Below, piece by piece: positions 2,831-32,800 of a stretch of 64,000 nt of DNA. The notes under the pieces were generated by a model. The model ran no database searches. It saw only the letters and a program-made list of their open reading frames with translations, and was not told the origin of the DNA. A program made the translations under genes and the position numbers. The stretch spans positions 6,308,885 through 6,372,884 of the forward strand of contig NC_049986.1 of the NCBI RefSeq assembly GCF_000003815.2, read 5' to 3'. Numbering within the stretch: position 1 is the stretch's first letter; the number at the start of each line of letters is the position of its first letter. Source of the DNA: Branchiostoma floridae. Taxonomy: Eukaryota > Chordata > Leptocardii > Amphioxiformes > Branchiostomatidae.

Positions 2831-5800
2831 CTGGGAAAGAGACGAAAACAAATCATGTACTGTAAATGCATTTACATTTGTGGGAATGTAATTCCGAGGT
2901 GGCAGGAAAAGGGCTGTTCGCAGTGGTTTTAAATTTGCAGTGCATTGGTAACACAAAAACTGCAAACATGAAACCACCGTGACGATTTCTGCATTTACAG
3001 TACAGCACATGTATAATGTCTATGTTACAGTACTTAAAAAAAAAAACATACACATTGTTACAAACAGTAATGATTTAAGCACAAAATGTCCAATCGAAGT
3101 GAAAGATCATTCAGAAACCATACACTGAAACAATGATAATTATCTATAGTGTTTTTTTTACCGTCACTTCATACTGTTGCTGCGTCACGGTGAATTTTTC
3201 TCCCTGCACGACTGATTGAGTGGTTGCTTTCAGTACCAAGGACAGGTCTGTTTGCCTGCTTGTCAGTTTCTATTCCTTTTTATATGCTTAGCCTTTATGG
3301 CATTTTAGAAAGGCCTAGTGCTGAACATCAACATATACATGTCTGTCCTTGGTGATGAACACTATCCACACACAGGTAAACACACCTGTCTCTTATACTT
3401 AACTCCTTCCATACAGAGATATACAGACCTGTCCCTAGTGCTGAACACTATCCAATCATATGCACGCAGACCTGTCCCTGGTGCTGAACACTATCCAATC
3501 ATATGCACACAGACCTGTCCCTGGTGCTGAACACTATCCAATCATATGCACACAGACCTGTCCCTGGTGCTGAACACTATCCACCCATACGCACACAGAC
3601 CTGTCCCTGGTGCTGAACACCATCCACCCATACGCACACAGACCTGTCCCTAGTGCTGAACACCATCCACCCATATGCACACAGACCTGTCCCTGGTGCT
3701 GAACACCATCCAGCCATACGCACACAGACCTGTCCCTGGTGCTGAACACCATCCACCCATACGCACACAGACCTGTCCCTGGTGCTGAACACCATCCACC
3801 CATACGCACACAGACCTGTCCCTGGTGCTGAACACCATCCACCCATACGCACACAGACCTGTCCCTGGTGCTGAACACCATCCACCCATATGCAAACAGA
3901 CCTGTCTCTGGTGCTAAACACTATCCACCCATATGCACACAGACCTGTCCCTGGTGCTGAACACTATCCACCCATATGCACACAGACCTGTCCCTGGTGC
4001 TGAACACCATTCACACACTCTTAAACTCCTTGCATACACAGATGTAGCATTTTTGCTGTTGCTTTGTACATCATAAATCACTATAACATCAATTCAGATT
4101 CAACACATTGGAATATATTTAGTAAATAGCAGGAGTGCTGCATTGCAGTTCAGACTTCAGATTGCCATTGCTTAGCCTACCTCATCTGGGAAGTCTACGA
4201 TCTCGAACTGCTGTGCGACCTCCGGCACCAGCCCCATGGTGAGTGCTGCTAGTGAGATGATGGAGAAGAAGAGGCTGTACAGGAGGGCCTTGTTTTCACG
4301 TAACGACTCCATGAACGGATGGCCCTAGGTAAGGGGACAAAACGGGATGATTAGTCAAGAAAAACCCTGCTAAGGCCTAGGTCCAAATTCCCAACCCGGG
4401 ACCCGGCTGGGTAGCTTTCGGAAACGTAAAAAAAATATGATACGAAAGGCAACAAAACACAGAACATAAACAAAATTAGTCAGGAGCATAATTTATCTTA
4501 CATTGTATGTTCCTTGGTAACCACTTTAATCTATTTTTCGTTTCTGCAAACATCACGGCAGGGCCATGTTTCAGAAATGGGACCTAAGCCTATTAGATAT
4601 GAAAGTGATCTCAGTCCAGTTAAGCTCACAGAAGAGCTGCACGTCCACTGGTCGTGATAGAGAGGACAGACGTTATGTACAGTATTTACAGGTTTGTTGT
4701 ACCAGGGAAATTCTCCTAGCTCTTTGTGACAAGCACAATGAACGGCTGACCATGGCTTAATGTCCCAAGGACTGCAGCCCTTTAATTAGTGTGAATTTCG
4801 GATGAGCGACACAGTAGAAATCAAATTCACACCCTCTAGTTTCATAGGCGGGGACGCCAACCGTTACACAATGACATGCTACAAATTCTGAACTTGTCAT
4901 ATACATGTAGGATACAATGTACCTATATGAGAATTAGAAACCTAACAAACATAAATCATCAAACAGACCAATATTTTCAACATCATAAACCCACATCCTG
5001 CTGTTTAGATTATGTAAAAGGTTTTTGAAGTAAAGAATATAATATAATGCTACAAACAAAAGTTATGTGTATTGACAGCAGGACAATGACAAAGCAGTAT
5101 GAGTGAGCTGTCCAACTGACCTTGTAGTTGACAGCAAACGTGTTGACCTGCATCATCATGCTGATGAGGTACACTGTGCTGTTCAACACGCTGGGCTCAA
5201 AGTCTTTTTCAAGGTCAACGTATTCTTCTGTCCTGTATAACACACAAGGTCAAAATGTCTTGAAACAAATCCACCATTAAACAATTGCTTTAAAGAGGAA
5301 CTCTACTCCAGATTGGAGTGTTATTTTCCATTTAATATTAATCTTAGGAGGTGCTAAATGCATACTACTTTATATTATATGATAAAGTACCCATTTGCCT
5401 CATGCTCATCTAAGGATTCAGTCTTCTACTAAACTCCCCAAGTACCCTCTAATCAATGTAAGCCTATGGATAAGTACAATGTGCCTGACTAAAGTTAGGT
5501 TACAATACTGATTCCAGGAGCGCTAAGAAAAACTTGTCTTGTTCTGCATGTGTTCTTTGATATATGGGGTCAAATTTGGCCAGTCCCTTGAGTGACCCCT
5601 ATAGAAATGTTTGACTGTATTCCAAAAACATGCACGATAAAGGGAGTTTCTGTACGTATAGAGAATGCATGGGTAGGGTCTGCATGGGTTTTGTGAGTGC
5701 CATATTGAGTGCCCAGGTACAACATCTACAAAAAAAGCCTGCATTACTCCTGTATTCTGCTAGGTTTACAAAGTGAAATAAACCACAATGTTGTAGCTCC

Positions 5801-8800
5801 CATACCTGGGCTGCAGTCTCTGTGCCTCCTGTTTTAGAAACACCAGACAAGAGAAGTGCACAGCAAACTGACACAGCACTGTCATGATGGTGTACAGGTT
5901 GAAGATGTTTGGTAGAGGGCGCTGTTTAGACAGTATCTTCAGAGGCTGTAGAGGGGATGGAAACAATATTTGAATAAGTACATTGTATGCGATGAAGGTT
6001 AGACATCCAGGTAATAAGATATGCCAAAAAGCAGTTATTAAGCAACTGGAAATGATTTTGGATATGGTCAGACGTTTCTTATAGCATTAACTATCTTTTG
6101 TCACACAGATGAAAGATAGCATCCACTACCTTGTCAGTGAAACTGACGTAAGATAGTGGATGCTATCTGAAATGTCTATGAAATATCCTATTCAGTTGCT
6201 TGAGTAACTGCTGGTGTAAGTACATTGTATGTCTGTAAATGACTGTTGAGTGATGTTTCAATCAGCCATTTGAATAAATCTTATGCACTATCATTTCTTC
6301 TTTTAAACATTCAATCAAAAATGTGTACTAAAAATAGATAATCAACAAGAGCTATGCTAAAGAACCATGACCATTGCATGACCAGAACATGAGATATTAT
6401 AATCAGACTTTCTGCTGCAGTACCATAGAAGGCCACTAGGCAATTCATTATAAAACCGGACTTTTTTCCCGACACCAAATATCATAAAGATCCAGCCTCA
6501 GCTTCTTGAATTATGGTATCCAAAAACAAACACACCCAACCACAAATGACACCGAAACATAACCTCCTTGACAAAATGCATAAAGAATGTCATACTGTGT
6601 ACCTTTGATCTTGAGATGAAGAGAAAGCACCCAGCAAGGAGCAGGCCCTGTAAGGTGGCCTGTCCGTCGCTGAACTTGATACCGTCCAGATACAGCACGC
6701 TCTGACTGTACGCTAGGATGAGCGCGTTCAGCGCCAGGATCTTAAACATCTGTAGTGTCGTCACCAAGGTGCAGCGACCCTGTTTGATGATATGACATAC
6801 TGGGCAGGGAAGGAAGAGAATATGATATGGTTATCAGGTAATTGTGAATCATCAGTGTTAAAAAGTCCTTGCACATTGCCAAGAGATCTTCATATACAGT
6901 CAAACCTGTCTATAGTGGCCACTATAGACAGGTGGCCACTATAGAGAAAATACTGATCAATTGACCATCACATTGCCTTGATCATCAACTGACCCTGCCA
7001 AAGATAAATCTATGGAAAATGATTGATATTGTCATGCAGAATGTTTGTTAATTCACCGACAAAGACTTGTACTCAAACGTTTAAGACACGTGTACTTTCC
7101 GTATAAAGTCACAGTAAATTACAGGAATTTCAGCTAAACCAAACCAAAGTTAGCCTGAGTACCATCCTCAGAAGCAGGCTTTTAGCCAGGCATGCGTCAA
7201 CGCGTCATCTGGACGCACTTTTCTTAGAATAACAAGAAATTTGATCCCCCTGGACGCCCTATACTGGGGAGAAAATCCTCTGACAAGCATGAAATTCTGA
7301 TTGACCAGGGATGCTACCAGGTCATCTGTGGTCACAGTCTTCTACTGTGACATCTGTAACAGTATTCTTGCCTCTTTGGATACCTTAGAATGCACTGTTT
7401 TAATTTAAAATCATCAAAAACTCTGCACCATGGAAGGTGGATGCCCCCAGACCCCCCTACAATAGTCACTTACCGCGACTCACCAATAAGTTTGGACTCC
7501 CTATTATAAAATCCTAGCTAAAAGCCTGCTCCGAAGTGACCACTGGCTCAATACATTTGCTTGCTTACCACAGTGGTTAGCAAGCAAAAGAAATGAGCGT
7601 GCAGTGACTAAGGAGGATGGTACTCAGGCTAAACCAAGGTGGCTTGCTTCAATGATAACTTAAGCTCGAAATTTTGTTTGTTTGTACGATATTTGCTGAG
7701 AAATTGTTCATGGTACTAAGACATATAAGATATCATATAGCTATACTTTATGGCTCAAATTGTCAATAAAATACAGATTATCGTTCAGTGCAAAACGAGA
7801 CTGTTCAGACATGTAGAAAGATGCTAGTAACAATATCGACATCATCCTAAAACGAAGATTGTGCAAAGGCCCCTTACCACATTGTATACTGGACAGTTTG
7901 TAAGTGAAGGGAGAGGCTATGCTGGCATGATTGTATGAAGGTCTTTACCACATTGTAAACTGCAGAGTTTATAAGTGAAGGGAGAGGCTATGCTGGCATG
8001 ATTGTATGAAGGTCCTTACCACATTGTATACTGGAGAGTTTATAAGTGAAGGGAGAGGCTATACTGGCATGATTGTATGAAGGTCTTTACCACATTGTAA
8101 ACTGCAGAGTTTATAAGTGAAGGGAGAGGCTATGCTGGCATGATTGTATGAAGGTCCTTACCACATTGTATACTGGAGAGTTTATAAGTGAAGGGAGAGG
8201 CTATACTGGCATGATTGTATGAAGGTCCTTACCACATTGTATACTGGAGAGTTTATAAGTGAAGGGAGAGGCTATACTGGCATGATTGTATGAAGGTCCT
8301 TACCACATTGTATACTGGAGAGTTTATAAGTGAAGGGAGAGGCTATGCTGGCATGACTGTATGAAGGTCCTTACCACATTGTATACTGGACAGTTTATAA
8401 GTGAAGGGAGAGGCTATGCTGGCATGATTGTATGAAGGTCCTTACCACATTGTATACTGGACAGTTTATAAGTGAAGGGAGAGGCTATGCTGGCATGATT
8501 GTATGAAGGTCCTTACCACATTGTATACTGGAGAGTTTATAAGTGAAGGGAGAGGCTATGCTGGCATGACTGTATGAAGGTCCTTACCACATTGTATACT
8601 GGACAGTTTATAAGTGAAGGGAGAGGCTATGCTGGCATGATTGTATGAAGGTCCTTACCACATTGTATACTGGAGAGTTTGTAAGTGAAGGGAGAGGCTA
8701 TGCTGGCATCTCCTAACTTGACGACTGCTGCTGCCTCCTGTTCATCTATCTCCTTCAGCATCTGCTCCAGCTTTTTCTGCATCTGAGCACTCTGGAGAAA

Positions 8801-11800
8801 AACATAAACAAGAGCTGTTGTAAAAAGCTAGCCAGTGAGAACCAGTGAAACAACAAGGGAGTGGAAAAAAAAGAAACAACATGCCGACACCCGGGATCGA
8901 ACCCGGGGCGGCAGATCACAAATCCAACGTGTAAACCGTTTGGCCAAAAGGCTTAAGCTATTTGTCGTCTTCAGTTTACCAGTTGTTGATTTTGAACCCC
9001 ACTGTTACAGAGTGAATGAAGTATCCAAAGACATATATGTGTTGTTTTTGCCCTGCATCTTAAGTTTGTAATACTAGTCTCAGCAATGAGATTCAAAATG
9101 TCCCTTTTTTTAGAAAACAAACTCACTGCATAGACTGCTAGTATCGTACATGTGTACTAGATTAAAAATTCTAACTAATTCAATCTATACATTAACCAGT
9201 ACCTTGCTTCCTGCTAAATTTTCCCCTCTGGCTATAGCTCTGTTCTTGGCAGCTCTGCTGCTCCCCCTAGGGGCTGACTGGGGGTGGTGCAGCTTGTTGT
9301 TTACTGGTTTATTGTCTTTTGGCTCCTATTAAAGAAAGGAGGGAAAAATGGTACAAAATGTTATTCATTCTAATAGTTTTTATTTATACATACCAATTGT
9401 TGAAAAAATTCAATTCTGTCCCAAAATATGGTTAGAAAAGACAAATTTAATGTTGATGGCCATCAGGTAAATAAAAGCAATTTCATCTAACTTACTTTTT
9501 CTTTGTCCTCCTTGCGTGATCTGTCTGGCATCCTCTCAGGTGCGTTAGATAGGAGGGCAACACCTGGGAAGGTGAAGGTGACAAAATTATACAAAAACAT
9601 CTCAGGCCACACCAATTTAATTTCTTGGTTCACGGATTTTTCCATAAAAATATGGAGCGAGAGGGCGAAATAAAAATAAAAATAAAAATTGTAAAATGGT
9701 TGGGGTAAAGGTAATGGCTAATCCAAAACATAAAGAAAAAAAGTTTTCAGCTTGAAAAAAGTACAAAAACACTATTTTTGTACAGTAACAGCACCTGTAC
9801 CCACACTTTAAGGCGCTTATAATATAAAGGCCAATTTGCTTCACCAGAAAGTTGGTGAATGGTTTCATTCATGGTGAAAATTCGCTGAGTGGTAATTTTT
9901 TTTTTTTTTTTTCAAAAAAATAGGAGCGAGCGAATCCGTGAACCAAGAAATTAAATCGGTGTGGCCTCAGAATGAATAAATATTATGAGATTGACAAACA
10001 ATTACATACTATTAGAATATTTTCAAAGACTACATTGTACATCTGTATTATTTCAGCACTTACCAACATGTGCATGTTTGAGTGCCCCGACATCGTTTGT
10101 ACCATCTCCACACATCAGGGTGGTGTAGCCTAGACTCTTCAGGGTGGTGATCACATACTCCTGAAAACAACACAAATTTTATCATGACGAAAAACTAGTC
10201 CAGAAAACATGTTTGTAACCATTTCTTGGTTCTATCGTTGACAAGTATAAAAGACAATCCCTCGGAGTAAGATAGGACATTAAATGTCAGTCCCCTGTTT
10301 AAGGACAGCCACACATTGAGCATGTTAAAGAACCCAACGCACATATCGAAAATAGTATATATGTGTTTGTCCTGGTGCGAGCGGTTTGAAACGTACCACC
10401 CTATGGCTGCATCTGGTGCAACAACTGTCGTATTGAGGTCACCTGAGTTAGCACTGAATGGCAGAAGTTCCAATTTAGCCCCACATACATGTACAATGTA
10501 CATATTCTAAGCTCCTTGCAAATCTGTAGTACTTGGTCCAAAGTAACAACTATTATAAATAGATGTCTAAACTGACCTTCTGTTTGGGTGCCACTCTTGC
10601 AAACACTTTCACGTGTGGCAAAATCTTCTGGAAAAACTTCTCATTCACAGTTTTTAGCTGGGTCAGGGCCTAAAAAAAACAGGTTAAATAGCAGTACATC
10701 AGATTTGATCCAGTGGGTGGGTACCAGTACAGAAAATTCAGGTACGGGTAGAGTCCAGGTTCAGGGATCAGGTCCAGGTCCGGACCTGAACCTGGACCTA
10801 ATTATCTGTGAAAACTTATGAATGGGCAATACTCAGTCAATGGTCCATATTGCTACAAAGGAATCCGTTCGGTGGAGTATCCAACATCCATTGTTGTTTT
10901 AAAATCCAATCTTCATGTAAACAACAATTATAGCTGCTTTTGTTTTATACAAGGTTTGACTGTAGAAACTTGGTAAAAATGACTATCAACTCTCCTCTAA
11001 TTCGCTTTTGTTATTTTCTTGGGCCTGTAAGCCCTGCTGATATAATCTGTTCATTTTTAAATCGGTCCAACATCCGGTTCAGTGATTTTTTCAGGTCCTG
11101 TTTTTTACGGGACCGGTCCAACAAGAAGAAATGGTTTTGTACCAGTATCCGTCCCTAGCAATCAATAATCATAGCACACCCAGAAATTGAACTATTAGGT
11201 AGGAAAGGATATAGTGGTATCGTGTGTATATGTCAGTACCATTGAAAAATGACTTAGAATCATTGAGTCAGACCATAAACAAATGCTTGACACTGATTCT
11301 ATGATTTCTCATATATGTATGTTATCAAACCACTGACCTCTCCTGTAAGGCAAAGGTCATATTTGCCAATCAGCTCCTTGGCGCCCTGCTGTGGCACCAT
11401 GGGAAGGGTGACCTTTTCATCCACAGACAGCCAGTGCCACTCTGAATCTACGACAAAACAAGGGGATGATACATAACACTTGCCTAACACTTTCACTGGT
11501 ATCCAAAATTATATTTTAGGACCAACAATCTGACAACAGTCAAATCTATCTAAGGCCCCATTCATGATGCAAAAATCCATGCAGATGCATCCGCATGTGC
11601 TTACATCCGACCACGATCCGAATGCAAACAGTTTACATTTTGTGTTCATGATGGCCACGAGCAAACTGTTTCAGATCCAGATGATTTTGCATTTCTCATC
11701 TAGAGGTCAGAGGTTGAGGTCAAGGAACAATGCTCAAGTTTCCCTTCCCAGCTCTTCTGGGTGTTCTGGGCCATAACAAAATTTCACGATCATGACAGTA

Positions 11801-14800
11801 ACGGCTAAAACATTTCAATTCCCCGCGCTATGACCCCGCGGTACCCGGATGTAATGCGGATTTACGCCGCATTTGCATTCATGATGACAATTCACAAATG
11901 CGGATTTAAAAAATCCATTTCAAATCCACCTCCCGAGCTGGTCCCGAAAAATCTGCATCAAATCCGTTTCGGAGCATTCATGATGAGAAATTTATCCGCA
12001 TCGGCCAAAAATGCGGATGCATCCGCATGAATTTTTGCATCATGAACGGGGCCTAATAGTATAATGACCACTCCTGGAAAATTGTAATAGTAGAAAGGTG
12101 ACCAAATTATCATTAGAAAGTATTCTTAAATGCTTGACAATACATGTAAATCAATTATAGGAAAATGTACTTTCGCATCGCTATACAGTTCAATTGCCTG
12201 TTTCCAAGTCCTTTTAAACCTTCTAAGTTCTATCTCCAGACAGCCAAATTATGGAACTCTCTCAACAACGCCTGTTTCCTTCCTATTTACAACTTATCAG
12301 CCTTCAAAACAATTGTCCAGCGCTATCTCCATGTACAATTATCATTTCCAACTTCTTATCTTTTTTCATTGCCTTGAAGTGATCTAATGACCTTGCTCTG
12401 AACAATCTTGTTTAAAAAAAAAATCAGGACAAAGAAGAAGTGTACATGACTCTCTACAAAATTAACTATTGTAAAAGCCAATGAAAAATGTTGTAATTGC
12501 TGTATAGATTCTTCTTCTTGCTACACTATTCGTCATTATCCTAGAAGAACTACTGTAACAGTCAAACCTGTCTATAGCGGCAACTCAAGGGACCGGACAA
12601 ATTTGGCCACTATAGACAGGTGGCCCCTGTATAGAGGTGGTAACTTGTAGATAAAATACCCAAGGGACAGACAAAAAGTGGCCACTATGGACAGGTGGCC
12701 CCTCTGTAGAGGTGGCCCCTAATACAGGTTTGACTGTATGTGTAATTGTACCATTTTTACCAATAGACCCACCTTGATCGACAGGTGGAGTGAGAACGAG
12801 AGTCTTGGGACACCTGGTGAAGCGCAGCTCCCTAGCCACGTGACAGGCTGTCAGGGGGTTATCACCTGTGATCATACACACCTGGTATGGACAGGTGAGA
12901 AAAAACAACAGGTCAGTACAATGTGGAGATACTGGAACAACAAATAGGATGGCAATTCTGTATCCAGGGCTCGAAATACATTATGCAGGTTAGTGCAGAT
13001 AAAATTGCCGCAGTGTAGGTATTTCTGGTGTCTACCTGCACCTAACCTGCACTGGTCCATGTACAGGGTTTTATACATAATAGTCCTATGATGTAGGTGC
13101 ATGTGGATTGTTGTTAACTGCATTGATTGTTACCAACTATAAAGTAGAAAAGAAAAAAATTGCAATTATGGTTTCTGAACAATTTTAGTATGATCCATAC
13201 TTCCTAACTTCCTAAAGTGGTGCAGGTAAAATTTGCTTGGGCCAGGTAATTTTCAATGTACATGTAACCAGTGCAGGTATAGAGATAAAGGATTTCAAGC
13301 ACTAGTACCACATGTAATTTTGATAGGGGATGCTCCTATTTTCACTTGGTTTGCTGGTTTACAGCTATCAAGTTAGTTTTTTTTTTTAAAGAAAGGGGGA
13401 AAGGATCAAATTTAGAAAGATTGGGCTCAAATTTTGAAGCATTACAGATAAGGGAAATGTCTCTAGCCCTTCCCCTATAAACAGCAAAATATGAACTTTA
13501 ACATTGTATCAAAATCTTACTTTTGCTTAAGACTTTACAGGAAACAATAAGATAGTGTTCTAGCCAGCCTGAAATTTTTCCGTCCCCTGGATTTTGAATT
13601 GAAATCCTGTCAAAGGTACGTCGATCCTTGGGGGCCCGGTAGTATGATCCCTGGAAAAATTTTGAAATCTAGACCGTCTGAAATGCAATTTCCTTTATTT
13701 TGAGGGGCAAATTTTGCTGGTAGAATCAGCTTGGTTTAATAAGAATCTATACATGCCGGTTTTTGTCCGTCACAGGGGACGGAATGGGCAAAATTCTTGT
13801 CCATCCCCAGCAGCAAAATTCCATCAAAGGATGGAAGGACGGTTGGTGGCTAGAACCCGGCAAAACAGGGCATACAAATTAAAGCAGGGCTCGAAATACC
13901 ACCTGCATAGGCAGATAAGTGCAGGTAATATAAAATTGGAGCTGTGCACCAGCTATTCTTGTGCATGTCTACCTGCACCTTACCTGCACTGATCCATGTA
14001 CTGGGTTTTATATAGTGACATAAATGTCATATGATATAGGTGTATGTGGATTGTTTTTAACTATTGGTTGTTACTAATTTCATGTATTAAAAGTACAAAT
14101 TTAAAGAAAAAAATAGCAATCATAATGGTTCCTGAGCAATTTTAGTATGATCAATACTTCTTAAATTCAGAGTGGTGCAGGTAAAATTTGTCTGTTGCAG
14201 GTAATTTTCAATTTTACCTGCAGTGCAGTGCAGGTATGCAGAAAAAAAGTATTTCAAGCCCTGAAAAGGTATTATGAGTTATACATTTGTACATGATGTA
14301 CGTCTGTGTACTTCAGGGCTTTCAGCTCGAATTTTTTTTCCGTCAGCCAATTACAATCGTCGCGAAAACCGCGAAAATTAATTAGCTGAGACCTTGAAAA
14401 ACGGGTTTTAATGAGATTATCGTATGCGAAAGGGCACCGAACACATTGTCAACAATCATAACAATAGCAAAACAAACAGTGTGTGGCTTTTACGGCCGTG
14501 GACAGCGTCCCCAAGCCGCCTGTAGCTTCCACCAAGGATTTTTGTCCGTCAAGGTTGACGGATTGGTTTTAAAATTTTTCCGTCAGACGCAGCACATTTC
14601 CGTCAATTGACGGAAAAACGGACGCTGGCTAGAGCCCTGGTGTACTTACATGGTGGGAGGCATGTATGATCTCCTTCACAGTAGCCTTGGAGTCAGCCTT
14701 GAGCGGGCAGGAGATGATGACAAACCCTGCAAAGTGTAGGTCCTTCTCTACATCATCTCTGGTCAGGTCACGCAGCTAAAACACAAACACACAACATCCA

Positions 14801-17800
14801 CATCATCTCTGGTCAGGTCACGCAGCTAGAACACAAACACACAACAACTACATCATCTCTGGTCAGGTCACGCAGCTAAAACACAAACACACAACATCCA
14901 CATCATCTCTGGTCAGGTCACACAGCTAGAACACAAACACACAACATCCACATCATCTCTGGTCAGGTCACGCAGCTAGAACACAAACACACAACAACCA
15001 CATCATCTCTGGTCAGGTCACGCAGCTAGAACACAAACACACAACAACCACATCATCTCTGGTCAGGTCACGCAGCTAGAACACAAACACACAACAACTA
15101 CATCATCTCTGGTCAGGTCACGCAGCTAAAACACAAACACACAACATCCACATCATCTCTGGTCAGGTCATGCAGCTAGAACACAAACACACAACATCCA
15201 CATCATCTCTGGTCAGGTCACACAGCTAAAACACAAACACACAACATCCACATCATCTCTGGTCAGGTCACGCAGCTAAAACACAAACACACAACATCCA
15301 CATCATCTCTGGTCAGGTCACGCAGCTAAAACACAAACACACAACATCCACATCATCTCTGGTCAGGTCACGCAGCTAAAACACAAACACACAACATCCA
15401 CATCATCTCTGGTCAGGTCACGTAGCTAAAACACAAACACACAACATCCACATCATCTCTGGTCAGGTCACGCAGCTAAAACACAAACACACAACATCCA
15501 CATCATCTCTGGTCAGGTCACGCAGCTAAAACACAAACAACAGCACTGTTCAAATGTGATTCAATCTCTACAACTGGATAAAAAATGGAGATTTAATTCC
15601 GGACGTTTCAAGTGACATCCATCACTCTTCTTCAGCATCACTAGAATGAAGTGGCAGGGCAATTCAATACAAATAGCTTACTAGAAAAACTGGTTGAACA
15701 TGTCAATTTGTTAACTCCTATGGATCGTATACAAATGTCACTGTTTGTTTGTTTGTTTTATTAGGATCTCCATTAGCGATACCACCGAAGTGGTACCGCT
15801 ATTCTTCCTGGAGTCGGAAACTTATATATATTTGCATAGACCCTATGGTAAGACAATACAGTCAAACCTGCCCGAGCGACCACCTCTTCTCAGCGACCAC
15901 CTGGCCATTTCGACCGCTTTTTCTCGGTCCCGATTTATTTTCCCATTGACGTAAACATTAAGCTACTATATCTCAACGACCATCTGGCCAACGCGACCAT
16001 GACCGGCCCAAATTGGGACCCATAACGACCGCATCATTTTCAAAATTGAGGTTTTCGTCGATTTTTTATGATAACTAGCGCGATTTTGTGCCGAAATCGG
16101 CCAGTTTGCGTCAGATTTTGGGGTTAAATTTACAGTTTACAGTGTGCGTGTTGTATTTGACATTAAAGACCTCGCTTCTTTGCGTGCGTGCAGTGTGCTT
16201 GCTATTTGCCATCAAGCACAACGGAAACCATTTATACTTTGCATCGGGCATGTTTTGAGTCGATACTCTTCTCAGCGACCACCTGTCCAAATCGACCGCT
16301 TTTTTCCGGTCCCCCGGGTGGTCGTTTTGGGCAGGTTTGACTGTACCATAGGAAAAGTCCAAGAATAAATCTCTGTTTTTTATCCAGCTGTAGAGAATGA
16401 ATTGTAATTGAATATTGTTTACCTGGATGTCTAACCTTCACAAACATGTTCTCATAGTGGCCCTTCAAATAATAGATTCTCTACATACTTGATGGCAACT
16501 GTCACAGTATGCTGGAGGAATCTCATGACTCATCAAATGTGTCCAATCATCCCTTCCTGTCACTCATTGGTGAACACAGATAAACAAACATGGACTGTCA
16601 TGTCGGATTAATGACTAGCTCTACCACCACTGAACTCTTCTACTTCTTGCCACTCTGGCACGTCTGACCTTTGCCATCATCTTCCAACTCACTGACTTGT
16701 GCCACTCCACTGATAGTGCATCAAGTATTACTAATTAATAGATAATATATACCAACCCAAACAAACATGTTAACCGTTTATGAAGACTATATAAGTGTAG
16801 ATCAATTACTGATGTTAGGTAGTTAAAGAGTTTGAGCTTATGTTTGCCATTGGTTATCATGCAGGGCTCGAAATACTGGGTGCATGTGCACCCAGGTGCA
16901 CCCAAAATTGGAGCTGTGCACCCAATTATTTTCTGTGGGTGCACAGGGTGCACCCAAATATTTTCTTAGGTTGTGTATGTTAAGATATTATAGTATACTT
17001 AAATATATCATATTCTTGACATCCAAGTGTTAGAAAGATAATAAAAATGTCTATCATGGTACTTGTTTAAGAATTTGATAGCTTGTAACTAAGTTTTATT
17101 ACTAGGTTATTACTTCAATTTAAAGTGGTGCACCCCATTTCTTAAGCTGGGTGCACCAGTGCACCTAATCCCAAAAATGAATTTCGAGCCCTGTCATGCC
17201 ATGGTTCCTATCCACACTGTTCTTTTCTTCCATTCTGAGTGTCTGAGTTTCTACCATAGTGTCTCCTTTCCTTACATGTTGAGGGGACATTGTGCCCAGT
17301 TTCTTGTACCCCAGAGCCAGGACCCGGGCGCCCTGCCGGGACATCTCCTGGTGCACCTCATCATAGTTGTCTGGGACACTGGAGTACTGTCATAACACAA
17401 AAAGAGAGAGAGATAGGACTTACAAACAAGGCAATGGCACAGAAGCTAACATAAAAGTACATACAATGTAGTGTAACAGTGGGGTTCAAGGACTGCTAAA
17501 CTGACCACGCCAAACGGCTTTAAGTCTTTGGGACGAACAGTTAAGCGTCTGAGTTTGTGGGCTGGCAGCCCAGGATCAGTGCGGGTTTGAATCCAGGGTG
17601 TCCGTTCGGCCAAAAGGCTTAAAGCCATTTGGCGTGGTCAGTTTAGCAGTCCTTGAATCCCACAGTTACAGTAGTACTGAATATACTATGAAGAGCAATA
17701 CAACCACCTTGTATTTCCTTTCCGATTACAAGTATTCATGTTCGAAATTCCATTGCAACTATGGTCAGGCTTTTAGCTAGGATTTTATAATAGGGAGTCC

Positions 17801-20800: not shown

Positions 20801-23800
20801 GCTCACACAAAAAAAATCACCATGAAATCAAATGATGAGAAAGCTAAAAGATGAGTACTATTTTCCTTAGATTCTTGATCATACCTTTGGTGAGGTTGTA
20901 TTCTACTGCAGTTAGCGTGGCCTTCTCTAGGGGGTCTCCTACCAGTCCATCCTCCATCTGTACCACTGAGTGACAGGATGCCAGCACCTGTACAGTCTCC
21001 AGTGGAACCTCAGAGATGGGACACACCTTATCCTTACCTCTGTACAGGGAACATGGAGATAGTGAGAGGGAGAGGGGGGTTAGTGTGTCTATGAGTGTAC
21101 AGTATGTCAGCACCTGTACAGTCTCCAGTGGAACCTCAGAGATGGGACACACCTTATCCTTACCCCTGTACAGGGAACATGGAGATAGTGAGAGGGAGAG
21201 TAAGTGTGTCTATGAGTGTACAGTATGTCAGCACCTGTACTGTCTCCAGTGGAACCTCAGAGATGGGACACACCTTATCCTTACCTCTGTACAGGGAACA
21301 TGGAGATAGTGAGAGGGAAAAGGGGGTAAGTGTGTCTATGAGTGTACAGTATGTCAGCACCTGTACTGTCTCCAGTGGAACCTCCGAGATGGGACACACC
21401 TTCTCCTTACCTCTGTACAGGGAACNNNNNNNNNNNNNNNNNNNNNNNNNNNNNNNNNNNNNNNNNNNNNNNNNNNNNNNNNNNNNNNNNNNNNNNNNNN
21501 NNNNNNNNNNNNNNNNNNNNNNNNNTGAGAGGGAGAGGGGGGTTAGTGTGTCTATGAGAGTACAGTATGTCAGCACCTGTACTGTCTCCAGTGGAACCTC
21601 TGAGATGGGACACATCTTATCCTTAGCTCTGTACAGGTAACATGGAGATAGTGAGAGGGAGAGGGGGGTTAGTGTGTCTATGAGTGTACAGTATGTCAGC
21701 ACCTGTACTGTCTCCAGTGGAACCTCCGAGATGGGACACACCTTCTCCTTACCTCTGTACAGGGAACATGTGGAGATAGTGAGAGGGAGAGGGGGGTTAG
21801 TGTGTCTGAGTGTACAGTATGTCAACACCTGTACTGTCTCCAGTGGAACCTCAGAGATGGGACACACCTTATCCTTACCTCTGTACAGGGAACATGGAGA
21901 TAGTGAGAGGGAGAGTAAGTGTGTCTATGAGTGTACAGTATGTCAACACCTGTACTGTCTCCAGTGGAACCTCCGAGATGGGACACACCTTCTCCTTACC
22001 TCTGTACAGGGAACATGTGGAGATAGTGAGAGGGAGAGGGGGGTTAGTGTGTCTATGAGTGTACAGTATGTCAACACCTGTACTGTCTCCAGTGGAACCT
22101 CAGAGATGGGACACACCTTCTCCTTACCTCTGTACAGGGAACATGCAGATAGTGAGAGGGAGAGGGGGGTTAGTGTGTCTATGAGTGTACAGTATGTCAA
22201 CACCTGTACTGTCTCCAGTGGAACCTCAGAGATGGGACACACCTTCTCCTTACCTCTGTACAGGGAACATGGAGATAGTGAGAGGGAGAGGGGGGTTAGT
22301 GTGTCTATGAGTGTACAGTATGTCAGCACCTGTACTGTCTCCAGTGGAACCTCAGAGATGGGACACACCTTATCCTTACCTCTGTACAGGGACATGGAGA
22401 TAGTGAGAGGGAGAGGGGGGTTAGTGTGTCTATGAGAGTACAGTATGTCAGCACCTGTACTGTCTCCAGTGGAACCTCTGAGATGGGACACACCTTATCC
22501 TTACCTCTGTACAGGGAACATGGAGATAGTGAGAGGGAGAGGGGGGTTAGTGTGTCTATGAGAGTACAGTATGTCAGCACCTGTACTGTCTCCAGTGGAA
22601 CCTCTGAGATGGGACACACCTTATCCTTACCTCTGTACAGGGAACATGGAGATAGTGAGAGGGAGAGGGGGGTTAGTGTGTCTATGAGTGTACAGTATGT
22701 CAGCACCTGTACTGTCTCCAGTGGAACCTCCGAGATGGGACACACCTTCTCTTTACCTCTGTACAGGGAACATGTGGAGATAGTGATAGGGAGGTTAGTG
22801 TGTCTATGAGTGTACAGTATGTCAGCACCTGTACTGTCGCCAGTGGAACCTCAGAGATGGGACACACCTTATCCTTACCTCTGTACAGGGAACATGGAGA
22901 TAGTGAGAGGGAGAGTAAGTGTGTCTATGAGTGTACAGTATGTCAACACCTGTACTGTCTCCAGTGGAACCTCCGAGATGGGACACACCTTATCCTTACC
23001 TCTGTACAGGGAACATGGAGATAGTGATAGGGAGAGGGGGGTTAGTGTGTCTATGAGTGTACAGTATGCCAGCACCTGTACTGTCTCCAGTGGAACCTCA
23101 GAGATGGGACACACCTTCTCTTTACCTCTGTACAGGGAACATGTGGAGATAGTGAGAGGGAGAGGGGGGTTAGTGTGTCTATGAGAGTACAGTATGTCAA
23201 CACCTGTACTGTCTCCAGTGGAACCTCAGAGATGGGACACACCTTATCCTTACCTCTGTACAGGGAACATGGAGATAGTGAGAGGGAGAGTAAGTGTGTC
23301 TATGAGTGTACAGTATGTCAGCACCTGTACTGTCTCCAGTGGAACCTCAGAGATGGGACACACGTTCTCTTTACCTCTGTACATGGAGAGTGAGTGAGAC
23401 AGTGAGAGAATGAGAGTGTGAGTGAGTGAGTGAGTGAGTGAGTGAGAGAGTGAGTGAATGAGTGAGTGAGTGAGTGAGTGAGAGTGAATGAGTGAGTGAG
23501 TGAGAGAATGAGAGAGTGAGTGAATGAGTGAGTGAGTGAGTGAGTGAATGAGTGAGCCAGTGAGTGAGTGAGTGGTCGAGTGAACGAGCAAGTGAGTGAG
23601 TGAGCCAGTGAGTGAGTGAATGGTCGAGTGAGCAAGTTTGACAGTCCCTGTACATAACATTTATACACAAATGACATNNNNNNNNNNNNNNNNNNNNNNN
23701 NNNNNNNNNNNNNNNNNNNNNNNNNNNNNNNNNNNNNNNNNNNNNNNNNNNNNNNNNNNNNNNNNNNNNNNNNNNNNNNNNNNNNNNNNNNNNNNNNNNN

Positions 23801-26800
23801 NNNNNNNNNNNNNNNNNNNNNNNNNNNNNNNNNNNNNNNNNNNNNNNNNNNNNNNNNNNNNNNNNNNNNNNNNNNNNNNNNNNNNNNNNNNNNNNNNNNN
23901 NNNNNNNNNNNNNNNNNNNNNNNNNNNNNNNNNNNNNNNNNNNNNNNNNNNNNNNNNNNNNNNNNNNNNNNNNNNNNNNNNNNNNNNNNNNNNNNNNNNN
24001 NNNNNNNNNNNNNNNNNNNNNNNNNNNNNNNNNNNNNNNNNNNNNNNNNNNNNNNNNNNNNNNNNNNNNNNNNNNNNNNNNNNNNNNNNNNNNNNNNNNN
24101 NNNNNNNNNNNNNNNNNNNNNNNNNNNNNNNNNNNNNNNNNNNNNNNNNNNNNNNNNNNNNNNNNNNNNNNNNNNNNNNNNNNNNNNNNNNNNNNNNNNN
24201 NNNNNNNNNNNNNNNNNNNNNNNNNNNNNNNNNNNNNNNNNNNNNNNNNNNNNNNNNNNNNNNNNNNNNNNNNNNNNNNNNNNNNNNNNNNNNNNNNNNN
24301 NNNNNNNNNNNNNNNNNNNNNNNNNNNNNNNNNNCACTTTAAAGAACCCACTCTACTTATCGAAAAGAGTAGGGGACCTTTCCGGCGTGAGTGGATCAAA
24401 TGAATTTGTCTGGATATGCAGCTTGAACTGTTTAGTCCAAACTGGTGTGTAACGCCATGAGGCAGTTTACCAGGTATGCAAAACAAACAAACAAACATGA
24501 AAACAAACAGTTTTACTTACTCAAGCCCTGCCACCCCCTCCACAGTGAGCTTGTCTGAAGTCAGGGTCCCAGTCTTGTCAAAACAGCAGATGTCAACCTT
24601 CCCTGCAAACGGGATCCTGAAGGGCTCCGTACAGAACACATCTGAGAAAAGACATCAGGGTTGAACAAGTTTTCTAAAATCCACTTGTCCTATCGGGCAA
24701 GCACATAAAAAATGTACTTGCCCGAACCAAATTTTCACTTGCCCAAAATTCAAATGTCACGGTTACTACTACTAGTATATGCATTTTCACTTCCAGCCAT
24801 CAAATAGACAATTGCTTGATGTCATGACTGTAAAAAGTAACAAGTATATCAAAATTGCACTAAAATCAATGGAAAAATCTTACTTGCCCGATCGGACAAG
24901 TGGGGTAGGACATGCACTTGCCCGAACAGCACTTCCACTTGCCCTGGACAATAGGGCTAGTGGACTTGTTTATCCCTGGACATCAAGAAATACTTCAAAT
25001 AGTGAAGACAAAACTTGTGGTAGTATAGTAGTTTTTGCAACCTGACTCAAAAGCCAGATTGCGGCATCAACATTTTAGGTTGCACGACTTTCAAGATATT
25101 TCCTTCTTGAAATGAGCTAATATCCATTATCTTTTCTGACTTCCAGTTACATGAACCTTGACCAGTCGTTAACGTCTGGAATTGTCCAAATTTTGGACAG
25201 GGGCACTGATTGGTCCCTACACATGAGTGAATTAAGGCAATGGGTTCAAGCGCTCATTTAAACAGGCGTTCCAACTCCCAAAAGCCCTCTGTCCACTTCA
25301 AGGAGAGCCTGTTGTCATTGAGCAATCGCTCTAGAACCCATTCTTTAATTTGCTCTTTAACTGATGTTAGCACTTAACATTTGAATGTGCAGGTCTCCAG
25401 AAGGGAAGCAGAAGTAAACATAGGAGAAACTACTACCCGGATGGTACCCAGGCTATAACTATGTTTTATCTTATCAATGTAATAAATACAAAACCTTATG
25501 CATGTATATAGGTGGGGAAAAGCGTTGTACAGTTCTGATTGCAACATTTTGGGTTATGCACTGCACTTACTCTAAATACGTTTAAATTAAAATCAAGTTG
25601 CACCTAGCAAAATATGGTTGCATTTGCAAGTGTGGTATTTCAAGCATTGCCCTATACCATGTGGTAGTACTTACAAAGTTTGGAGAGAGCCAGTAGAGAT
25701 GTGTTGACAGCCAGTGACAGTTCAATAGGCAGTTCTGGTGGAACCACTGAGGTCAGGATCAAGGTGCACTCCAGAAACAACTTGTACCTGTTCCTCTTTG
25801 GGTCCTCAGTACCTGGCAGGGAATAAAGAACTTGTTTAAGTGTAATCGAAACAAGATTATATACAGATAACATAAATATAAAATGTTTACTTATAAGTTT
25901 ACTTTAAAAAATTTATTTCGAATCACATAATAGAACTGCTTAGTTGACTCCAACAGTCCCAAATGTTCACCCCTTAGCAACTGGAGGCATTATTGCAATT
26001 CTCTCCTTTTGAGTGGTAACAGGACCTTGGACACACTTGCTCTAATCTTTTGATGAGTTAAAAGTTAAAGCTGCCCGTACATTTGTAACAGATGCTTAGG
26101 GGTGGTGCCCATCTCCATTTCTGTAGCCCTTAGGCCACACATTTGTGAAGCCACTACAGCAGCAGTGTCTAGTCTGCAGGGAGTGATGTGTGTTTAACTC
26201 CCATATACTCTTCCTCATTAGTGCTGAGTGCTAAGCAGAGAAAGCAGCATGTACTATTTTTAGAGTCTTTGGTATGACTCGACCGGGGATCGAACTCACA
26301 ACCTATATATCTACCGCGTGCAAGGCAAACACTCTACCCACTCGGCCATTGCACCTGCAGCTATCTTTGAATAAAGGATCGAAAAATGTATGTAAACATG
26401 TATGTAGTATTCTCTACTTGTAACAGTCTTAAACAGACCTTTAATCCACACATAAGAAGCTGCAGCGATGGCAAACACAAGCAGGAACAGGATGAAGAAG
26501 AAAGTCTCTAGGTTGTTGGCTGTCACTCGCTTCACTCCAAACAGGATGGTTCTCAACAGCTTACCCTGTAAAATTCAAAATGTATATAATTTCTTCTACG
26601 TACATTTAGGGGTGGTTACCAGTACTGAAAATTCAGGTCCAGGTACGGTCCAGGTCCAGAGGTTCAGGTCTAGGTCTGGACCTCAACCTGGACCTACTTG
26701 TTTGTGAATGGGCAATACTACAAAACAAAGCCTGGTAAAGAAAGGACAGGATGTTTAGTCCTCTGGCCTGGCTGTATTTCTTTTCCTGGTCTTTTTTTTT

Positions 26801-29800
26801 GCCCTTGTGCATTAGTTTTGGGGTCTCCAGAGGATGTCATCCATAAAATGTGGCCTAATATCAGAACTCGAATAAAACTTTTTGTACATCACATTGCAAA
26901 AGAGTTGACTAAGAATGTGTACTCACCTGAGAGGTGTTAAACCCTGTCCTCAGCACATATGCAATACAGCCATTGTCAGGAGCTGGAAATCACAATCAAT
27001 GGTAAATTAAGGACATTACACATAACGCTAGTTCACCTTTATCCGTGGGGTAACCTACATTCGTTGCTTTTCAAAACAGCACATGTAGGGATATCAAGTG
27101 GACGTACGGTTGTTTCAAATTGTAATATTTTCAAAATATAGCAGTTTGAACCCACATTTCGTCCGCATGATAGCCCTAAATGCGCTGCTTTTGAAAACAA
27201 CGGAGATAGGTTACCCCGCGGATAAAGGTGAACTAGCATTAGGTAGGGTGAGTGTATACCTGTCAACAAATGTTTAGCGGGATGATTATGATTACTTTGA
27301 GAAGTTTGACAATTGTAAACACTTGACAACTGTAGGAGGAACTATAATACAGCAGTCAAAGTGTTCTTGCCAGGCCTTTTCAACATAGGGGGCTCCTATG
27401 CTGTGATTTGGATCCTCTGTGTATGCTATGATTTGGGTCCCTACACTGTGATTTGGGCCCCTATGTTGTGTTTCAACATAAGAAGGTGACTTTTCTGTTT
27501 TGTAACCCATCTTTATTACAAGGCTTTATTTCACTATAATATTGTTTCTAAGGGTTATGAATTTAAAATTTTTAGGGGGAGGATTCCCCAAGACTCCCTA
27601 CCATGTTAACACCTGCATGGTGTACCACATTAGCTTTGCTGCACTGAGATGCTCCTATATTATATATGCCGTGAAAAAATTCTGGTGAGAACAGTGAGTC
27701 ATATAATCTAAGGGGAAAGTAACAGTAAGAAAGTAGAACATTCAGCCTCACATTTCAGTCCTGCTGCAGTTTTCCCAGGAGGGGTGTGTTGTACCACCTT
27801 GGTGCCTCCAAAGATGATGTGCAGCTTTCCATCTACATCAGGATCCAGGACATAGTCTGGCTCCAGGCTTTCCACAGGCTCCTGACAAAACAACAGTACT
27901 TCATCATTCTGTACCTAGGCTACCATAAGGGTGTTTCACAAGAACTTCGTGAAGAGGCATGTGTTATACTACTAATTGTAATTGTAATTGTAATTGTAAT
28001 TAGCAGTGGTTTGGTAGTTTTCGTCACAACACACCACAAACGTGCTTATTGTTGTTGCAACTATCAAATTAAAACACTGCAAAAATATTTCTCTACAAAC
28101 TAGGGGTGGGTACTGGTACAAAAAAAAACTTTTTTTCTTGTTGGACCTGTCTAAAAAAAAAAAACAGATCAAAAAAAGTTTTGGTGCTTACTGGTTCAAG
28201 GAAATAGCAAGAGCGAAGTACAGACAACAGTAGACAGAGTTAATAGTCATTTCTGCGAAGTTTCTACAGTCAAACTTACAGAGTTTACATGGAGACAGGA
28301 TTCTAAAATGCCAGTGGGTGTTGGATAGTCTGCGAAACAGATTCTTTTGTAGAAAACTGGACCATTCTTTTGAGTATCGCCCATTCATAAGTTTTCACAA
28401 ACAATTAGGTCCATGTCCAAGTTCAGGTCCGGATGTGGACCTGATACTCAGGACCTGAACCACACCGGTATCCGAATTTTCTGTACAGGTACCCAACCCT
28501 ACTATGAAAAACGCAGTACCTTCATCTGTGGTACAGACTCCCCAGTCAGCATTGCCTCATCCACAATACATGGGCCCCTCAACAGTAACAGGTCACATGG
28601 CACAGGGTTGTCATGTTGGGAACGTCCTGTTTACACAAGAAAAACATGAACACAACTGTTACTCAAATTCTTATTGCATCTACACTATTCTTAGCACTAT
28701 GTATGTAGATGAATATGTGGTAAGCTGGTGGCCTAACAGTTACAGTATTGGGCTCAGAACCAATTGGTTCCAAGTTCAATACTCAATGTTGTGATCTATG
28801 ATCTTGTGAACTTTCCCTGACAGTGGAGTGATACCCACTGAGCTCCTAGCCTTAATTGTGTCTATCTCTACCTGAAGTGTGAAAAATCTGCACATCATGT
28901 GGCGCAATGCAGCAGGGTGTTCTATTCAAAACCGAGAGGTTCTAGGTTTGAATCAGTTGTTGTGCCACCGATATTGTGCCCTTGGGAAAGGCACTTTGCA
29001 TGACTTTCCTCACTTCACTCTGGTGGAAATGAGTACCTAGCTTAGGTCAGGGCTATCCCTCAGATAGGACGTTAAATGGAGGTCACACGTTTGAGGAGAG
29101 TCACATTTTGAGCACATTAAAGAACCTACAGCACTTATTTGAAAAGAGTAGGGGTCTTTCCCAGTGTGAGTGGATCAAACCATTCCCACTCAAAATGGGG
29201 TAGGGAATCTCCCGAGCAGCCTCGTAACCCCTGCCTCTCCTATTGAGTCAGTGAAGTCAAGCTTGCCTATGCTTCATGTTTCTGACTTAGGGAGAAGAAA
29301 TTTTGCTACAGTTATCCCTATTGGCCACTCTTCATCTTCATGATGATCTTCATCAGGCCCTTCGAACTTGATTTTTAAAATAAAAATGAGGGAATGAATG
29401 ATTCACCTATAGAACAGATGTCTCCCGGCACCAGTTCATCACTGTTGATGGGTCTCCACTTGCGGTTCCTGTACACCTGGATGAGGAAGGGTTTGTTCCC
29501 CATCTTTCTGATCTCTGACATGTTCCTCATCTGCTGCTGGACCAGTGTTGCCTCGAACGCCACCAGCATAAACAGGGTGAAGATACTGAAACAGGGAGAA
29601 AACATCAGCCACCAGCATGAACAGGGTGAAGATACTGAAACAGGGAGAAAACATCAGCCACCAGCATGAACAGGGTGAAGATACTGAAACAGGGAGAAAA
29701 CATCAGCCACCAGCATGAACAGGGTGAAGATACTGAAACAGGGAGAAAACATCAGCCACCAGCATGAACAGGGTGAAGATACTGAAACAGGGAGAAAACA

Positions 29801-32800
29801 TCAGCCACCAGCATAATCAGGGTGAAGATACTGAAACAGGGAGAAAACATTAGCCACCAGCATGAACAGGGTGAAGATACTGAAACAGGGAGAAAACATC
29901 AGACGCCAGCATGAACAGGGTGAAGATACTGAAACAGGGAGAAAACATTAGCATTGACCGTGGGATGGCCGAGTGGGTATAGTGTTGGCCTTGCATTTGG
30001 TACGTTGTGAGTTCGATCCCCACCAAGTCATACCTCAGCTCCCCCCCCCCACCCCCACGATGCCCCACGTGGGGCTATTTGGGGGTACCCTATGCAGATG
30101 CAGATACCAAAGACTTTAAAATTGGTACAGCTGCTTTCTCTGCTTAGCACTCAGCATTCAGGAAAGAGTGTGGATCCGAAGTTGAACACATACCACTATC
30201 AGTGGACTAGCCCCCTGCTGTAGTGATTGCACAAAAGTTGTATGGCCCAGGGCTCCTAAAATGGAGATGGGTGCTGCCCTATTCACCATCAGGCATGGGA
30301 AGGACTTTGACTTTGATCCAGGGGCATCCACCTTCCATGGTGCAGAGTTTTAGAGAATTCAACCGAAGAATGTGACCACAAGTGACCTAGTAGCATCCCT
30401 GGTCAATCAGGAATTTTAAGCTGGTTAGCTAGTACATCCCAATATCTGATCATTTTGAGAACAGTGCATCCAAATGATGCCTGAATGCATGCCTGGCTAA
30501 AAGCCTACTGCAGATCATAAGTATTTTGTTGTATTCCCTGTACCTTACCTGTAGTACCAGTACTCATCCAGACACCACAGTCCCAAACAGTGTACCTACC
30601 TGTAGTACCAGTACTCATCCAGACACCACAGTCCCACACTGTGTACCTACCTGTAGTACCAGTACTCATCCAGATACCACAGCCCCACACAGTGTACCTA
30701 CCTGTAGTACCAGTACTCATCCAGACACCACAGTCCCACACAGTGTGCCTACCTGTAGTACCAGTACTCATCCAGATACCACAGCCCCACACAGTGTACC
30801 TACCTGTAGTACCAGTACTCATCCAGACACCACAGCCCCACACAGTGTACCTACCTGTAGTACCAGTACTCATCCAGACACCACAGCCCCACACAGTGTA
30901 CCTACCTGTAGTACCAGTACTCATCCAGACACCACAGCCCCACACAGTGTACCTACCTGTAGTACCAGTACTCATCCAGACACCACAGCCCCACACAGTG
31001 TACCTACCTGTAGTACCAGTACTCATCCAGACACCACAGCCCCACACAGTGTGCCTACCTGTAGTACCAGTACTCATCTAGACACCACAGCCCCACACAG
31101 TGTGCCTACCTGTAGTACCAGTACTCATCTAGACACCACAGCCGCACACAGAACACCTGTACCTACCTGTAGTACCAGTACTCATCTAGACACCACAGCC
31201 GCACACAGAACACCTGTACCTACCTGTAGTACCAGTACTCATCCAGACACCACAGCCCCACACAGAACACCTGGAACACGAAGAAAGGAGCTGTGGCTCT
31301 CTCCTTAAACAGCTCCGCAAAGTCTGGAACAACCATCTGGACTCTGCGAACACAAAAATGAACAACGATATGAGTAAACTTGAAGATCTAAAGAGCACAA
31401 CAAGGCCTCTCTGCATTTCAACCACTTTGATCCCTGAAATGAAATACAAAATTCTGTTTCCTAGCATGGCAGCAACTTTGTCATGCTGATTTAGATATTA
31501 CCTCCACACTTGCACGAAATCAGGTTTTAACACTGCCTGTAAGATATAAGTTTAGTCAGAATTTCATGATTGTCAGAGGATTTACTCCCTAGTGAAAGGG
31601 AGTCTAGTGCGTCCAATTTCAGATTACTTTTAGAACAGCGTGTCCAAATGACACCTAGACACATGCCTGACTAAAAGCCTGATTGTGATATGGTTAGACT
31701 ACTTTGAAAGCAAACGATTGAAGAGATTTAGTAGTAGTTGCAAGCAGTGTTTTTTCCATCCCCTGGATTTTGAATGTAAATCCTGTCAAAGGTGCAACAA
31801 TCCAAAGGTGCCTGAGTGCATGCTCCCCCAGGAAAATTTTGAAATCAAGACCCTCTGAAACACTATTTCCTTTATTTTCAGGGGCAAATTTTGCTGGTAG
31901 ACTTTGTTTGGTTCAACTAATGCCTTTATATGCCAATTATTCTCCATCACAGAGTATAGAATGGGCAAAATATTTGTTCGTCTCCATCTGCAAATTCCGG
32001 CAAAGGACAGAAGGACCGATGCTGGCTAGAACACTGAGTCAAGTACTCAGGGCTCGAAGTACCACCTGCATATGCAGGTTAATGCAGGTAAAATTGGAGC
32101 TGTGCAGATATTTCTGGTATACCTGCACCTAGCCTGCACAGGTCCATGTACTGGGTTTTATACATATATCACATATGTCCTATGATGTAGGTATATATGG
32201 AATATTAGCTGCATTGAATGTTATCACCTTAGTGACCTATAAAGAATATAAGAATAAATAGCAATGGTTCCTGAACAATTCTAGTATGAACCATACTTCC
32301 TAGTTAAGAGTGGTGCAGGTAAAATTTGTCTACTGCAGGTAATCTTAAATTTTAGTTTTTGTTACCTGCACCAGTGCACTTTTGCAGAAAAAAGTATTTT
32401 GAGCCCTGAGTACTGTTACAGTAGTATAATGTGTTTTACTACATGTACGTACTCATTTTTCCCAAATTTGGCGCTGGCCCTGCTGATGTCAGCCTCGTCC
32501 TGGTACCCTCGGCAGGCCTGGTACGCCTTCATCGGCAGGTCCACGGGAAACTCCACCGCTCGGAACTGCTTCTTCTCCTCGCTGTCGTACACATACTTGA
32601 TCTTCTGGAAGTTGAACCAGATCTGCTCTGCTCCAGAGGCGTTGTCCTAAAAATCAAAGGCAAAAACTTGTGTAAAGACTCTTTAAGTTTAAACCACTGT
32701 GAATACATTCCTGTCATACCTGGGCCACCATAACATTAAGGTGTTCCAGACAAGATGATAAATTTCCGTATCACACGGGCTTCTTAGTTGTATCACACAG

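Follow-up and report, generated by a model that had tools for sequence, protein, structure and literature searches.

In the lancelet Branchiostoma floridae, six splice junctions of one gene, the orthologue of ATP13A1, are amplified into tandem arrays whose repeat unit is part exon and part intron. The gene lies in the stretch of 64,000 nucleotides that we analysed (C8:6308885-6372884, hereafter the window). In all likelihood the six arrays are independent minisatellites of the mirage type known from amphioxus, in which the exon-proximal copy of the junction is used and the other copies are decoys removed by splicing, and which belong to a class that is over-represented genome-wide.

The gene model on which this account is based comprises the following coding part:

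2723..34932, minus strand: ATP13A1 orthologue, coding part; 27 exons, 3522 nucleotides, 1173 amino acids, one terminal stop

Splice signals guided the placement of the 26 introns, together with an alignment to the Protein Data Bank (PDB) entries 9jbz and 9jbm, which carry the entry name 'Endoplasmic reticulum transmembrane helix translocase' and whose chains we take to be human ATP13A1. In a phmmer search a draft protein of 1141 amino acids matched 9jbz over nearly its full length with 1490 bits. The exonic fraction of the gene span is 0.109, such that introns make up about 89% of it.

With the minimum score set to 50, Tandem Repeats Finder (TRF) reported 28 rows in the window, including seven long arrays inside ATP13A1. 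Six of these seven sit on splice junctions:

30539..31265, minus strand: exon 4 donor array; exon end at 31224; TRF 51 bp x 14.0; 14 copies
29559..29952, minus strand: exon 5 acceptor array; exon start at 29585; TRF 49 bp x 8.0; 8 copies
20967..23387, minus strand: exon 12 acceptor array; exon start at 21039; unit 121-126 bp; 19 readable acceptor copies
19379..20065, minus strand: exon 13 donor array; exon end at 20008; TRF 155 bp x 4.4; 5 donor copies
14750..15539, minus strand: exon 15 acceptor array; exon start at 14775; TRF 50 bp x 15.8; 16 copies
7872..8709, minus strand: exon 22 donor array; exon end at 8659; TRF 71 bp x 11.8; 12 donor copies

The junctions, exon numbers and unit sizes that a first-pass annotation had read from the letters alone were thus borne out by TRF and the 27-exon model. 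Each of the six arrays begins in an exon and finishes in the neighbouring intron, and each covers a single junction, three of them donors and three acceptors. The exon 4 donor unit holds 42 exonic bases and is 57 bp long in the two exon-proximal copies; the exon 5 acceptor unit consists of 27 exonic and 22 intronic bases. Every unit contains a complete splice signal, with at least 9 intronic bases at the donors and at least 22 at the acceptors. GT or AG is retained in all 74 readable copies (14, 8, 19, 5, 16 and 12 in the order listed above), in agreement with the earlier claim that the splice dinucleotides are kept.

The exon 12 array, of about 20 units, is reported by TRF in two parts (20967-21425 and 21526-23387) that are interrupted by a 100-N assembly gap at 21426-21525. 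The gap shows that this array was hard to assemble, and for the lancelet PGBD5 gene arrays are described in the accessible text of PMC3902484 as varying in copy number between two genome versions. Both points would fit arrays that are artefacts of assembly. We consider this very improbable: the arrays hold between 4 and 16 distinct units each, their copies carry different substitutions, arrays of this kind occur at several unrelated genes (see below), and the PGBD5 arrays were upheld by a second look at Sanger data and by newly produced Illumina data according to the same text.

The six arrays do not match one another in blastn comparisons at E 1e-4, which confirms that their units have no sequence in common; the exon 13 array shows short matches of about 45 bp to other parts of the window. 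The spreading of one repeat among the junctions is thereby ruled out. Intron 4 is bounded by unrelated arrays at its two ends with unique sequence in between. This arrangement also bears on the Rogers model, in which a new intron forms when an exonic AGGT site is duplicated in tandem. That model likewise involves a tandem duplication with splice signals, and mirages have been proposed as seeds of new introns (PMC3087553, available text). A duplication origin would, however, derive both intron ends from one segment. In intron 4, the single ATP13A1 intron that bears arrays at both ends and the one whose ends were compared, the exon 4 donor array and the exon 5 acceptor array gave no match, and each of the ATP13A1 arrays touches one intron end only. 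We therefore regard intron birth as the source of the arrays as most improbable, slightly more so even than an assembly artefact.

Next we considered chance placement. A unit of each length was slid over the gene span, leaving out wholly exonic positions. The resulting probability of meeting a junction was 0.07 to 0.22 per array, such that 0.87 junction arrays are expected among seven and the probability of at least six is 1.4e-5, a value that does not stand for a genome-wide probability since the gene was chosen for its striking look. Random placement of the arrays within ATP13A1 is ruled out at this value. The seventh array, which had been overlooked in the first-pass annotation, served as internal control:

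3423..4014, minus strand: seventh array; TRF 43 bp x 13.8; wholly within the last intron

It is intronic and thus a potential counter-example. It has been set aside, because it shares 71% identity with an array in one of our random genomic stretches (L046) and is by this resemblance taken as a member of a dispersed repeat. In or beside this minisatellite (3331-4021, minus strand) four matches to the Rfam family mir-2060 were found with 55-65 bits, while the related L046 array gave no mir-2060 match at the gathering threshold. The annotated microRNA family mir-2060 may be a dispersed minisatellite.

With up to about 20 near-identical sites on offer, the gene must still yield one protein. We swapped every junction in turn for each of its other copies (68 decoys) and translated the result. 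A premature stop arose in 67 of the 68 cases; for three exon 12 decoys the stop is reached only past the 100-N gap, so that their frame is unsafe. The sole decoy with an open frame is the exon 12 acceptor 126 nucleotides upstream, which adds 42 codons. At all six arrays the conserved protein length is obtained in translation only with the exon-proximal copy, which is in our judgement very probably the productive one. When splice-site strength is scored on the basis of the sites in this gene, the array junctions do not stand out: the array donors rank 5, 21 and 16 of 26, and the array acceptors 10, 11 and 22 of 26. Exon definition most likely guides the spliceosome, in that the acceptor and donor bounding the shortest exon would be paired; for donor and acceptor arrays alike the shortest exon would be the one ending at the exon-proximal copy. 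The remaining copies would then act as intronic decoys that are excised with the intron. Each of the six arrays repeats either the used donor or the used acceptor and never both, therefore no spurious mini-exon composed of the two is on offer inside an array. In the published mirage cases regular splicing is reportedly undisturbed (PMC3087553, available text).

How did the copies evolve once an array existed? Changes in the splice core were found in 12 of 466 cells compared with 106 of 4983 in the rest of the units (74 of 2764 exonic, 32 of 2219 intronic; Fisher p 0.50; cells are not independent events). The splice core hence changes as often as the remainder, and the full retention of the consensus provides no evidence for constraint on the decoys. 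The consensus is indeed kept in all readable copies, as first noticed, but selection on decoy splice cores is unsupported. The mean identity among the copies is 93 to 97% for the six arrays, such that youth can account for the retention of GT and AG. In three of the six arrays nearer copies are more alike (permutation p 0.003, 0.047 and 0.042; 0.15, 0.17 and 0.33 for the others), as local duplication predicts. Among the distinct exonic differences between copies 17 are nonsynonymous and 15 synonymous, compared with a neutral expectation of 71 to 77% nonsynonymous. The synonymous excess has a p of 0.003 to 0.022 depending on the assumed transition bias, and 4 of these 32 differences are variants present in the productive copy too. 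It appears that copies once occupied the coding position or traded sequence with it.

One could imagine that the extra copies are selectively kept for a function, be it by slowing splicing or by giving rise to regulated poison isoforms. The retained dinucleotides, the premature stops from nearly all decoys and the synonymous excess are compatible with this, and a precedent exists in the human IFI6 (6-16) gene, where a minisatellite likewise offers several donors at one exon end and two downstream repeat units are reportedly used as donors (PMC4526556, available text). IFI6 differs from ATP13A1 in this reported use of downstream units and in its three mRNAs, and the accessible part of that paper mentions no acceptor counterpart. 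We consider a function of the copies improbable, given that the core varies like the rest, that the high identity lets youth alone suffice, and that an array on contig C1 contains units with AGGAAAGT where others have AGGTGAGT.

The preferred account of six mirage-type arrays with decoy copies can be put into the following steps. Each array would have originated independently by tandem duplication of a short segment, with breakpoints as we infer them, that comprised one complete splice signal together with the adjacent exon. Slippage or unequal exchange between adjoining copies would then have enlarged it. A duplication that leaves the gene viable requires a unit with the whole splice signal, therefore all copies start with the full consensus and no selection on decoys is required.

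The first-pass annotation had suggested that arrays not enriched at junctions genome-wide would speak against its observation. We therefore searched the genome (513 Mb, 431 contigs) for tandem triplets of splice motifs; the counts are motif-triplet matches, i.e. copies rather than arrays. For the donor motif AGGTRAGT 2407 triplets were found at gaps of 25-55, compared with 117 for the reversed motif, and 544 compared with 90 at gaps of 56-86. The controls gave 334 triplets and 3 reversed for AGCTRAGT (GT to CT), 188 and 159 for AGGARAGT (GT to GA), and 454 and 92 for AGGTRACT (terminal AGT to ACT). For the acceptor motif TTTTNCAGG, with the reversed pattern as the only control, there were 137 triplets compared with 6. 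In 180 kb of random sequence single sites numbered 10 for AGGTRAGT, 10 for AGCTRAGT, 33 for AGGARAGT, 4 for AGGTRACT and 13 for TGARTGGA (the donor reversed); TTTTNCAGG occurred 13 times and its reverse 15 times. The excess of donor triplets is thus seen although single AGGTRAGT sites are no more common than those of the reversed motif, AGCTRAGT and AGGARAGT (10 vs 13, 10 and 33). The excess cannot be put down to the AGG core alone, as AGGARAGT stays near its reversed control. Dispersed families contribute to these counts. Among the matches listed, 84 of 100 for AGCTRAGT belong to one dispersed 47-bp family. The AGGTRAGT matches that lie outside such a family (53 of the 100 listed) fall by eye into 12 distinct places on contig C1, among matches listed to 29.3 of 35.3 Mb. 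Across C1 as a whole, no AGCTRAGT place lies beyond the dispersed family, while AGGARAGT has 2 places, one of them within a donor array, and AGGTRACT has 5. One of the AGGTRACT loci (C1:230978-231549) is the site of an acceptor array in a dynein gene described below, and AGGTRACT was dropped as a clean control because it would also match an exon that begins with GTRACT behind the AG of its acceptor. The motif triplets over the genome show enrichment, and splice-junction arrays are over-represented genome-wide relative to matched motifs.

Two repeats encountered in these searches are recorded separately. A dispersed tandem family of 50-51 bp on C1 (near 8.05, 9.48, 20.23 and 29.24 Mb) contains donor-like and acceptor-like signals in its unit and, among the matches listed, switches strand within the locus at 20.2 and 29.2 Mb. 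A single array at C1:2403380-2403859 (L019) mixes AGGTGAGT units and AGGAAAGT units, such that the donor motif is present in part of the copies.

We also looked at seven distinct regions of C1 picked by the donor pattern. In three of the seven the array-bounded exons have homology, namely to a dynein heavy chain (PDB 9e-6), to the dynein domain AAA_7 (Pfam 1.7e-7) and to TALPID3, and for the TALPID3 donor array the homology match ends at the junction. The donor-pattern arrays in L012, L013, L019 and L022 gave no exon homology in the frames tested (one each in Pfam, two for L019); for L013, matches in the one Pfam frame lay below the curated cut-offs. Outside the donor-motif selection, L022 also contains an E2F8-like donor array with a weak match (E 0.0037). 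Polyubiquitin matches in L022 were higher-scoring, yet no stretch of them passes alone. Also outside this selection, a dynein acceptor array at L001:1-124 bounds an exon that matches Pfam AAA_6 with 3.1e-8. At the acceptor array of L003 the exon starts with GDSGVGKS; joining this exon to the preceding one lengthens the AAA_7 match without a gap, and profile positions 4-39 (27 bits) become 4-47 (44 bits). The two arrays L003:1497-1998 and L003:2486-3094 differ in their units and occupy the donor and acceptor of one dynein intron, as in ATP13A1 intron 4. Altogether, two donor arrays and two acceptor arrays lie within about 12 kb of each other in the dynein heavy-chain region C1:220311-231564, making four junction arrays. 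Six arrays in one gene, singled out in the first-pass annotation as a striking case, are thus indeed extreme but not unique in kind.

For an unselected view, a random-number script chose 10-kb stretches from the interval 0.2-14 Mb on contigs C1-C19, each sampled contig being at least 17 Mb long. The sample took in 18 of 20 drawn places, leaving out the one on C8 and the second one on C1. It contained 15 arrays with a unit of at least 25 bp and at least 80% identity, of which 14 had at least 1.9 copies and six at least 2.4. These cuts exclude low-identity or two-copy arrays, e.g. the single-locus array L039:5047-5532 at 73% identity. Among the six longer arrays two are homology-confirmed junction arrays, one is a probable one and three are dispersed repeats. 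One confirmed array covers an exon acceptor in CCDC138 (Pfam 2.3e-14). The other covers the donor of an exon resembling DOCK6, for which the PDB match stops at the last codon before GT. The probable one is a donor array at L043:7787-8489, whose exon has neither a Pfam nor a PDB match. In the 18 stretches we also observed a dispersed tandem family with a unit of about 163 bp (L034:8963, L039:9061, L044:2305, also L040 and L047). If the sample represents the genome, point estimates of about 5,700 junction arrays per genome (from the 2 confirmed arrays) to 8,600 (from 3) are obtained, with 95% Poisson ranges of 700-21,000 and 1,800-25,000, respectively.

Several points weigh against the account of used exon-proximal copies, spliced-out decoys and genome-wide over-representation. 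The assignment of the productive copy is derived from the protein and not from transcripts, and exon definition as the selector is carried over from established knowledge of other animals. The synonymous excess is not predicted by a pure decay of decoys and suggests exchange with the productive copy. On the genomic side a reversed pattern makes a weak control when used by itself, because AGCTRAGT too gives 334 vs 3. Furthermore, 47 of the 100 AGGTRAGT matches listed come from one dispersed 50-bp family, and the AGGTRACT triplets narrow the donor contrast.

Why the arrays reside at junctions may be explained in two ways, to which we give about equal weight and neither of which we would put quite at even chances. 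In the first, duplication is targeted to junctions, where transcription-coupled breaks, R-loops or splicing-dependent exposure of germ-line DNA could promote it. Donor and acceptor motifs are little alike and both are over-represented as tandem triplets. In addition, non-dispersed arrays (unit of at least 25 bp, at least 2.4 copies, 80% identity) in the window and the 180 kb of random sequence lie mostly at junctions, with six in ATP13A1, two confirmed and one probable compared with one non-junction complex. An even origin followed by survival alone would predict many intronic arrays, because introns make up most of the gene span. A targeting process is nevertheless putative, the random sample is small, and diverged intronic arrays may miss the cuts; the single-locus array L039:5047-5532 fell to the 80% cut. 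The second explanation is survivorship: duplications would arise mainly in exons and at their edges, e.g. by composition, and the survivors would be those that include the full splice signal. Wholly exonic duplications would be purged for lengthening the protein, while extra copies bearing the signal would be spliced out. The complete signal in every unit and the decoy cores that are no better conserved than the rest agree with this, but an unexplained scarcity of intronic duplications is required. The earlier suggestion that the process targets the junction is upheld as regards the enrichment, which a biased origin or a biased survival could each produce. Combining these observations, we tentatively propose, as a possibility rather than as the expected outcome, that thousands of junction minisatellites have arisen by a mutational process preferring germline-transcribed junctions, and that the productive copy exchanges with its array, which would thereby be partly coding-constrained.

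The non-junction complex mentioned above (45499-47226) consists of two long arrays with units of 224 and 156 bp that have sequence in common. Further features of the window are a 5S ribosomal RNA match (54 bits; 18857-18976, plus strand) within intron 13 of ATP13A1, an intronless open frame of 648 amino acids (38445-40388, minus strand) that weakly resembles sugar epimerases dependent on nicotinamide adenine dinucleotide (GDP_Man_Dehyd 8e-4, under the curated cut-off), and a fragment resembling the helix-turn-helix domain of the Mos1 transposase (51802-52059, plus strand; 4.9e-7).

Mirage minisatellites of amphioxus have been described at Adh3, the globin genes BflGb6 and BflGb9 (PMC3087553) and PGBD5, with troponin C (PMC3902484) and two more loci (PMC3087553, PMC3902484) known by citation; for both papers we refer to the accessible text. 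The ATP13A1 arrays share with them units that span an exon-intron boundary at a donor or an acceptor in a lancelet genome; the published units measure 10 to about 160 bp and retain AG or GT in many copies (PMC3087553, PMC3902484, same text). The link to mirages drawn in the first-pass annotation is sustained by boundary-spanning units in all six arrays, by donors as well as acceptors and by the intact splice signals. Length polymorphism and somatic instability are counted among the traits of mirages too. Unlike the published cases, ATP13A1 has six independent arrays in one gene with up to about 20 units. For Adh3, the classic mirage gene, the genome yielded two exon matches. A literature search, to which most subscription papers were out of reach, found no earlier measurement of a genome-wide enrichment of junction arrays, and the accessible portions of PMC4527844 and PMC2206037 do not report such arrays. 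The kind is already known and ATP13A1 is an extreme member of it; what is new is the enrichment across the genome. Junction arrays are a little-studied peculiarity of amphioxus that appears to be common in the B. floridae genome.

For the annotation of lancelet genes, false extra exons and frame breaks are to be expected at junction arrays. ATP13A1, with three donor and three acceptor arrays within one transcript, offers a direct setting in which to study site choice. If splice junctions are duplication hot spots in a living chordate, a single genome may hold thousands of natural experiments that show how the spliceosome chooses one site from as many as 20 nearly identical ones and in what ways new intron boundaries can arise.

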